Shown: one piece after another, positions 25,211 through 26,695 of the stretch | How positions within the stretch are numbered: the first letter of the stretch is position 1 | Layout of the letters: each line of letters starts with the position of its first letter | From: Bacteroidota bacterium | GTDB taxonomy: Bacteria; Bacteroidota; Bacteroidia; Flavobacteriales_D; Crocinitomicaceae | Length of the DNA: 64,000 nt | Assembly: GCA_006226425.1 (NCBI GenBank) | Contig: SBGX01000036.1 | Location: 1 to 64,000, forward strand | Direction: 5' to 3' | The notes under the pieces: generated by a model | What the model was told of the DNA's origin: nothing | Seen by the model: only the letters and a program-made list of their open reading frames with translations | The model's database searches: none | Translations under genes and position numbers: made by a program

Positions 25211-26455
25211 ATGTCTATCCAACAAAGCATTAGTGAGCGTTTCGTCCGATACGCACAGATCGACACAGAAGCAGATCCGAATTCAAACACCACTCCTTCC
25301 TCCATGAAGCAAAAAGACCTGGGAGAATTACTCGTCCGGGAACTTCAAGAACTAGGAATTGGTGATGCCCATATGGATGAATGGGGTTACGTTTATGCGA
25401 CAATCCCAGGTAATTCCAGTAAAAAAGTGCCGGTCATTTGCTATTGTGCACACATGGACACTGCTCCTGATTGCTCCGGAAAAGACGTTCGGCCAATTAT
25501 TCATCACCAATGGGATGGGAGCCCAATAGTTCTTCCCGATGATCCGGAAGTCATTATTACCACGGAAAAACATCCTTATCTGAAAGAACGAATCGGGGAC
25601 GATATCATCACGGCGAGTGGAAAAACCTTATTGGGTGCCGACGACAAAGCTGGTGTTGCCATCATTATGGATCTGGCGCAACGACTTAGCCAAAATCCAG
25701 GACTCGCGACACATGGTGACATTCGCATCCTTTTTACTCCGGATGAAGAAATCGGACGTGGAGTCGACAAAGTTGACATTCAAAAGCTCGGTGCCGTTGC
25801 CGGATATACACTTGATGGTGGAGAGCGAGGAATGATCGAAGACGAAACCTTTTCTGCGGATGCCATGACCTTCCACATCACAGGAATCAGTGCCCATCCG
25901 GGATATGCCAAGGGAAAAATGGTACATGCATCCAAAGTGCTTGCGGACTTTCTCCAACGCTTACCGATGAATGAATGGTGCCCTGAAAGCACGACGGACC
26001 GGGAAGGATTTGTTCATCCGGTCGCCATGAGTGGAGGACTGGAAGAAGCTCAAATCACTTTCATAATTCGAGATCACGAGACCAGTAAACTGGCTTCCTA
26101 TGAACAACGTCTGGAATCCTATTTAAAAGAAAGTATTGACCAGTTTCCCGGTGCCAGTTATAAATCGGAAGTGACCGAACAATACCGAAATATGAAAGAA
26201 ATATTGAAGGATCAGCCTCATATCACGGATTACGCCGTACTAGCCATGGAACGTGCCCAGGTGACTCCAAACCGATCCATTATTCGAGGAGGAACAGACG
26301 GTTCCAGACTTTCTTTCATGGGCCTCCCCTGCCCCAATTTGTTTACAGGTGAAATGGGAATCCACTCCAAGCAGGAATACGTCTCTGTACAGGATATGGA
26401 AAAAGCTTCAGACACCCTGGTTGAATTAGCAAAGATCTGGGAAGAAAAAGCGTAA
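25211..26455 (+). CDS. pepT: Peptidase T (tripeptide aminopeptidase)
   Basis: 414-aa cytoplasmic M20B zinc aminopeptidase that removes the N-terminal residue of tripeptides. The first zinc ligands lie in CYCAHMDTAPD, the bridging Asp in LLGADDKAGVA, the general base and zinc Glu in FTPDEEIGRGVDK, and later ligands in YTLDGGE and FTGEMGIHSKQEYV. The length is normal. The stop codon TAA (26453-26455) begins the run of A that serves as the T-tract of the RNA gene transcribed on the opposite strand. Confidence 0.95.
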   Translation: MSIQQSISERFVRYAQIDTEADPNSNTTPSSMKQKDLGELLVRELQELGIGDAHMDEWGYVYATIPGNSSKKVPVICYCAHMDTAPDCSGKDVRPIIHHQWDGSPIVLPDDPEVIITTEKHPYLKERIGDDIITASGKTLLGADDKAGVAIIMDLAQRLSQNPGLATHGDIRILFTPDEEIGRGVDKVDIQKLGAVAGYTLDGGERGMIEDETFSADAMTFHITGISAHPGYAKGKMVHASKVLADFLQRLPMNEWCPESTTDREGFVHPVAMSGGLEEAQITFIIRDHETSKLASYEQRLESYLKESIDQFPGASYKSEVTEQYRNMKEILKDQPHITDYAVLAMERAQVTPNRSIIRGGTDGSRLSFMGLPCPNLFTGEMGIHSKQEYVSVQDMEKASDTLVELAKIWEEKA

Positions 26456-26495
26456 AAAAACCCATGTAGTTGTTTTCTGAAAGCCCCAGAAAACA
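26454..26495 (-). terminator. 3' end and terminator of the non-coding RNA
   Basis: On the minus strand a 9-bp hairpin (26495-26487 with 26479-26471) is followed by the 3' strand of the long-range helix (26470-26461) and seven T (26460-26454). The T-tract overlaps the pepT stop codon. Either the local hairpin or the long-range helix could promote release. Confidence 0.65.
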
Positions 26496-26690
26496 CGATC
26501 AGGAGTCAGAAGGCGCCTGCTGTAATCCGCTGTTCGAAAATTCTCTGTGATCCGAAGATCACTGCGGCCCGCCATAGGGTGCGTTACATTCCCCTTAAAG
26601 TATACTTTTAGGCTTCGCAAGATACTACATGGGCTACCGTTTCCGGTATTGACCTCTTACTTCTTCGCTGAGAAGCGTGCCATAAAACAA
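26456..26690 (-). ncRNA. Structured non-coding RNA of unassigned family
   Basis: The 302-bp gap between pepT and the ABC transporter gene holds a minus-strand RNA. A perfect -7 motif (26688-26695) sits at its 5' side. A 10-bp long-range helix pairs 26624-26633 with 26461-26470 (CCCATGTAGT with ACTACATGGG on the minus strand), directly followed by seven T. Inside are a 9-bp perfect hairpin (26471-26479 with 26487-26495) and a 6-bp stem capped by UUCG in the minus direction (26547-26562). An irregular arm nests around it (26512-26515 with 26570-26573, 26527-26530 with 26564-26567), and there is a palindromic hairpin (26593-26612). 5' of the long helix is a TACCG-GAAA-CGGTA hairpin (26635-26648). 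Stable UUCG and GNRA loops occur only in the minus orientation, which sets the strand. I could not match it to tmRNA, RNase P or SRP RNA. A 6S-like regulator is one possibility. Confidence 0.75.
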
Positions 26691-26695
26691 ATTTA
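26688..26695 (-). promoter_or_regulatory. -7 element (TAAATTTG) of the non-coding RNA
   Basis: Perfect minus-strand TAnnTTTG, with transcription expected to start near 26683. No TTG is found at the -33 position. Confidence 0.55.

Follow-up and report, generated by a model that had tools for sequence, protein, structure and literature searches.

A divergent 6S RNA gene with a lineage-specific 5' domain in a Crocinitomicaceae-related Flavobacteriales genome

6S RNA is a small RNA thought to shut off the transcription enzyme once growth stops. In the window analysed here, a 64-kb stretch of a Flavobacteriales (Crocinitomicaceae-related) genome, a gap lies between the genes for an ABC exporter and for an M20 peptidase of pepT-like type, and its content raises a simple question: which RNA, if any, does it encode? 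A first-pass annotation had proposed a promoter-driven, terminated and structured non-coding RNA of about 230 nt on the minus strand, unassigned and possibly the founder of a new family, with a 6S-type RNA as the closest idea. The putative transcription unit stands as described, whereas its unassigned status does not: the RNA is the 6S RNA of its clade, a divergent member of the class with a lineage-specific 5' domain. We place the probability that the gap gene is the single 6S RNA gene (ssrS) of this genome at about 0.95, and regard the 6S identification as near certain.

Every motif on which the annotation relied was recovered by direct inspection of the sequence. A perfect 10-bp inverted repeat (CCCATGTAGT, 26624-26633 with 26461-26470) runs on the minus strand into seven T (26460-26454), read here as a terminator U-tract, and a -7 motif (TAAATTTG) is present on the same strand at 26695-26688. 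On this strand a perfect stem of 6 bp with a UUCG tetraloop (26556-26553) makes a terminal hairpin (GUGAUC-UUCG-GAUCAC, 26547-26562) that is evident in sequence and fold and variable in relatives, a GAAA tetraloop (26643-26640) caps a 5-bp stem, and a 9-bp hairpin pairs 26495-26487 with 26479-26471. At 26453-26460 the U-tract also runs into the stop codon of the convergent pepT, covering its final two bases, so that the two genes lie tail to tail without a spacer. The pepT/ABC exporter synteny was conserved in none of the relative loci fetched, and the neighbours are therefore uninformative on function here. The folding energy of the single sequence is only mildly unusual, with z = -1.95 on the minus strand (5/200 shuffles equally good) and z = -2.66 on the plus strand (0/200); it is weak evidence and offers no choice of strand, and the case therefore rests on comparison. 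The minus strand is chosen by conservation and by the orientation of the promoter and the U-tract.

At curated thresholds, Rfam called no family anywhere in the 64-kb window. A search at permissive thresholds gave one meaningful match in the region, to RF01693 (Bacteroidales-1, '6S-Bacteroidales RNA suggested'), which covers model positions 1-179 of 179 and window positions 26638-26454 on the minus strand at 28.1 bits (E = 0.0086, 551 nt searched), below the gathering cut-off of 60 bits. The window locus is also the best RF01693 match genome-wide (E 0.013), and of 120 genomes searched in the order, 53 give matches to the family, nearly always under the cut-off. The genome yields no match to RF01685 (6S-Flavo; gathering cut-off 85 bits) at E<=1 and none to RF00013, the classical proteobacterial and firmicute 6S model, at E<=10. 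DNA similarity alone matched 12/59 relatives, some of these being unrelated short matches at other places. A clade covariance model, R1, built from an alignment of 26 RF01693-matched loci, gives a match in 103 of the 249 genomes searched in the order, nearly always with one copy each, and finds members outside the order, elsewhere in the class and phylum. It gives exactly one match in the window's genome, at 114.5 bits, a score obtained on one of its own training sequences. The RF01693 match and R1 define a conserved 6S RNA core of 177 nt (26457-26633, minus strand), and the full-length RF01693 match, together with the bridge between families that R1 provides (see below), upholds the 6S-type reading. 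In genus g22, of the same family f1, a convincing 6S match was found in one of 26 genomes (G509, 83 bits), many of them near complete; 6S RNA may have been lost there or have diverged past the model.

The conservation in relatives and the compensatory changes in the 10-bp helix on which the first proposal had been made to depend are both present. Ninety loci were realigned on R2, a model that includes helix P2, and a conserved structured RNA is seen across them: a rod with closing stem, central bubble and apical stem, the architecture of the 6S class, made up of 33 modelled pairs. Standard pairs occupy 91.8% of cells (70.9% when shuffled), double-sided changes occur in 32/33 pairs, double-change cells number 700 against 221 in shuffles, and the covariation score of the core is 0.657 (0.256 shuffled, slid versions <=0.165); the alignment is fitted to the R2 structure, which favours that structure, and the pairing and covariation tests treat the sequences without modelling their relatedness. 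The inverted repeat forms the closing stem P1 (5' arm 26624-26633, 3' arm 26461-26470), in which 8/8 modelled pairs are double-sided and 99.2% of cells paired. Helix P2 (GAAGCCU 26610-26616 with GGGCUUU 26480-26486) has eight modelled pairs, all double-sided, at 90% pairing. Beyond the bubble lie P3 (26592-26595 with 26501-26504; four double-sided pairs, 78% paired) and P3b (26579-26585 with 26510-26516; seven double-sided pairs, 86% paired), the latter imperfect in the window itself. The apical helix P4 pairs 26573-26574 with 26521-26522 and 26564-26567 with 26527-26530; its 5' side (26564-26574) bears the conserved TGGCGGGCCGC and is 99-100% paired, its 3' side (26521-26530) bears the conserved GCGGATTACA, within which GATTAC is invariant in 26 sequences, and the pair of columns 102/186 takes six pair types among the 90 sequences. 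The irregular arm noted earlier is the apical arm of this conserved fold.

Helix P2 was absent from a first RNAalifold consensus computed on a MAFFT alignment, because the helix registers were misaligned; that consensus was overturned by the P2-aware model and by a duplex test independent of any alignment. In this test, P2 strands from the same species pair at -10.9 kcal/mol and strands swapped between species at -8.6 kcal/mol, with 0/10000 permutations as good. The helix varies widely in sequence, for example GAAGCUU/AAGCUUC, GACGUCU/AGACGUU, UAUAAACUU/AAGUUUAUA, GAAAAACU/AGUUUUUC and GACAAACUC/GAGUUUGU.

Upstream of the core, the Bacteroidota -7 consensus is TAnnTTTG, and the window's element (26688-26695, minus strand), identified by its sequence and conserved spacing, sits 55 nt from the core start at 26633. 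Of 36 leader-bearing loci, 29 have the relaxed form TAnnTTTR 54-68 nt ahead of the core, where shuffling predicts 1.1 (maximum 4), and 16 have the perfect TAnnTTTG (0.46 expected). From the position of this element, transcription would start at about 26682-26684. In many members of the order, including this one, the ~50 nt between promoter and core are a leader of two stem-loops. L1 (26650-26682, minus strand) has an outer helix (26682-26679 with 26653-26650) and an inner hairpin (26676-26671 with 26664-26659) and is defined by fold and covariation; L2 (26635-26648, minus strand) is the GAAA-capped hairpin, defined by hairpin counts and covariation. The 5' hairpins of the annotation are thus real, and the part of its description that fell is their lumping with the rest of the RNA: they form a separate 5' domain (26682-26635) before the 6S core (26633-26457). 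Across loci L2 has 4-6 bp, its loop often being GAAA, GCAA or similar, and a hairpin abutting P1 is predicted in 54/90 loci against 16.3 in shuffles. Among 23 loci the covariation score of the leader is 0.966 (0.263 shuffled, 0/500; slid versions <=0.281), and 90% of its cells are paired against 52.3% when shuffled.

A model of the leader, R3, matches the window at 47.6 bits, again as a training sequence. It also found the leader at held-out loci (L143, L058, L067, L134, L003, L057, L060-L062, L065, L068, L118 and L129) and, in a genome search, gave further held-out matches (G029, G242, G005, G244, G027 and G246). All of these held-out matches lie immediately upstream of a 6S core, an adjacency somewhat favoured by the ten P1 bases that R3 contains; R3 did not match loci that have a perfect P1 but lack the leader. 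The 5' domain is in neither the RF01693 nor the RF01685 model, and no Rfam family matches the leader. Judged from these comparisons of sequences, it is an evolutionarily maintained, lineage-specific addition to 6S RNA.

How this domain relates to the mature RNA admits two answers between which the odds are about even: the 228 nt may be one RNA, or L1 and L2 may be a regulatory or processing module that is removed from a shorter mature 6S RNA. The latter would fit the Bacteroidales loci and several families of the order, which have no leader and in which the -7 box lies nearer the core, and also the abutment of L2 on P1, with 1-3 nt between them; 6S precursors are known to be processed in E. 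coli (PMC7641849). Against it, the leader has been kept with strong compensatory change over many genera, and is therefore more than a discarded spacer. We think that the 5' domain most likely serves as the transcript's 5' end and governs how stable the transcript is or how it is processed. More tentatively, and on balance improbably, it might stay on the mature 6S RNA as a functional part that tunes its activity or lifetime, for instance by binding a protein or small molecule or by stacking on the closing stem as a brace.

Two competing pairings of the P2 3' strand, the switchable element of the 6S class, were found in the core. The 9-bp 3'-strand hairpin (26471-26495, minus strand) holds that strand in its loop and arm, so that, in the window, formation of the hairpin (26495-26487/26479-26471) precludes P2 (26616-26610/26486-26480) and vice versa. 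The predicted energies are -70.6 kcal/mol for the hairpin conformer and -67.9 kcal/mol for the P2 conformer, with predicted pair probabilities of 0.89 and 0.04; in the isolated RNA the hairpin is thus predicted to be 2.7 kcal/mol more stable. The stretch containing the P2 3' strand folds better than the mean of its dinucleotide shuffles in 78/90 loci (mean z -1.7). At the Bacteroidales loci inspected (L138 and L141) the 3' hairpin is no better than chance, and it is therefore not universal. In E. coli 6S RNA, synthesis of the product RNA unwinds P2 (the downstream helix) and a 9-bp hairpin that aids release arises in the 3' strand, whereas in B. subtilis 6S-1 the 3' hairpin is already present in the free RNA (PMC8876501). 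By analogy, a release switch is the likely mechanism here, and we infer its direction from those systems.

These features suggest the following course of events. A transcript of about 228 nt, driven by the -7 promoter (26695-26688) and ending with the U-tract (26454), would be made by RNA polymerase carrying the primary sigma factor of Bacteroidota. This transcript would fold into a rod of closing stem P1, P2, central bubble and apical arm (P3, P3b and P4 with GGCGGGCC/GGAUUAC), with the two-stem-loop 5' domain presumably ahead of it. By homology, the rod would mimic an open promoter, bind the primary holoenzyme and restrain it as growth slows. On nutrient upshift the polymerase would copy the 5' bubble strand into a short product RNA, which would invade the P2 5' strand and free the 3' strand; the latter would snap into the 3'-strand hairpin and the complex would fall apart, as in E. 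coli 6S RNA. It is very unlikely that the RNA is a variant 6S whose partner is not the primary holoenzyme but something else, such as the core polymerase bound by Ms1. The apical motif, which is unlike that of RF00013, speaks for such a variant; against it stands the homology of the RNA to the Bacteroides 6S RNA, whose reported product RNAs arise solely in a promoter-like complex (PMC7366714). In B. thetaiotaomicron, dRNA-seq has detected both the 6S RNA and the product RNAs made from it (PMC7366714).

A new RNA family unrelated to 6S, the other reading that the annotation had entertained, agrees with the failure of every Rfam family to reach its gathering score in the window, and we give it hardly any credence in view of how the RF01693 score, from a full-length match here, rises to 135-184 bits in relatives that R1 finds. 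Petrimonas sp. L141 and Dysgonamonadaceae L138 score 69-79 bits with R1 and 135-144 bits with RF01693 at the same coordinates, and L078 and L080 reach 184 and 167 bits with RF01693. The class members L081, L083, L084 and L085, found by R1, score 98-112 bits with RF01685 (cut-off 85) at matching coordinates, and both families match at one place in L087, L088 and L089 and likewise in the order members G136 and G125. As a caveat, L138 and L141 were selected with a DNA pattern that included the apical motif; L078-L089 were found by the model alone. R1 loci exceed the cut-offs of both families, and the clade model therefore bridges RF01693 and RF01685, which already refutes the reading as a new family. 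A further point against it is the neighbourhood in relatives: the 6S gene of class members L083-L087 lies between zapA (PF05164) and rny (PF12072), whereas the window locus has pepT and the ABC exporter instead. In L083, a short coiled-coil-like ORF (867-1157) stands directly before zapA; it possibly encodes a ZapB-like protein, which would make the order ZapB-like, zapA, 6S, rny. A divergent RNase P RNA, SRP RNA or tmRNA, for which the annotation had itself seen no clear sequence signature and which size and location alone would suggest, has a negligible probability, since above-cut-off genes for all three were located elsewhere in the genome (RNase P RNA at C25:209860-210237, 269 bits; SRP RNA at C1:85928-86025, 52 bits; tmRNA at C1:330107-330512, 147 bits) and no tRNA-like structure was found in the RNA.

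The gap gene is thus best read as a 6S RNA, and one covariance model joins Bacteroidales-1, 6S-Flavo and a large set of unannotated Flavobacteriales loci into one 6S family, so that 6S RNA becomes annotatable in lineages in which it currently goes unrecognised. Neither RF01693 nor RF01685 is listed with a clan; the two should probably share one clan with 6S. The analysis also provides covariation evidence for P1 and P2, which are absent from the RF01693 consensus structure, and evidence for a P2/3'-hairpin alternative resembling the E. coli release switch, and the maintained 5' domain raises the testable question of whether, in this lineage, 6S RNA is itself subject to regulation or processing.

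Among known systems, RF01693 is alike along its full length (1-179), with the conserved GGCGGGCC...GGATTACA and with the closing stem and U-tract at its ends; it differs in that the Rfam structure annotates only the apical part, leaving unannotated the P1 and P2 that covary here, and in having no 5' domain. RF01685 shares P2 and the apical helix at the same places as the clade model, whereas its 108-position model covers only the middle of the RNA and again has no 5' domain. Ms1 of Actinobacteria, compared by its description, is also 6S-like, a single abundant polymerase-binding RNA, and by that description differs in belonging to another phylum and in binding the core enzyme (PMC9130861). RF00013 (E. 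coli ssrS and B. subtilis 6S-1) has no sequence-level match to the window RNA and a different apical motif, and the window RNA has a structured 5' domain of ~50 nt; the likeness lies in the rod, with closing stem, helix beside the bubble, bubble and apical arm, in the alternative between P2 and the 3'-strand hairpin (PMC8876501), and in the zapA neighbourhood of relatives. The zapA-6S order in L083-L087 resembles zapB-zapA-ssrS, the standard gene order in beta- and gamma-Proteobacteria (PMC7641849). The parts of the switch are those of E. coli 6S RNA; by predicted free energy, the hairpin-favouring balance of the window RNA resembles B. subtilis 6S-1 more than E. coli, and its ground state is perhaps that of B. 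subtilis 6S-1.
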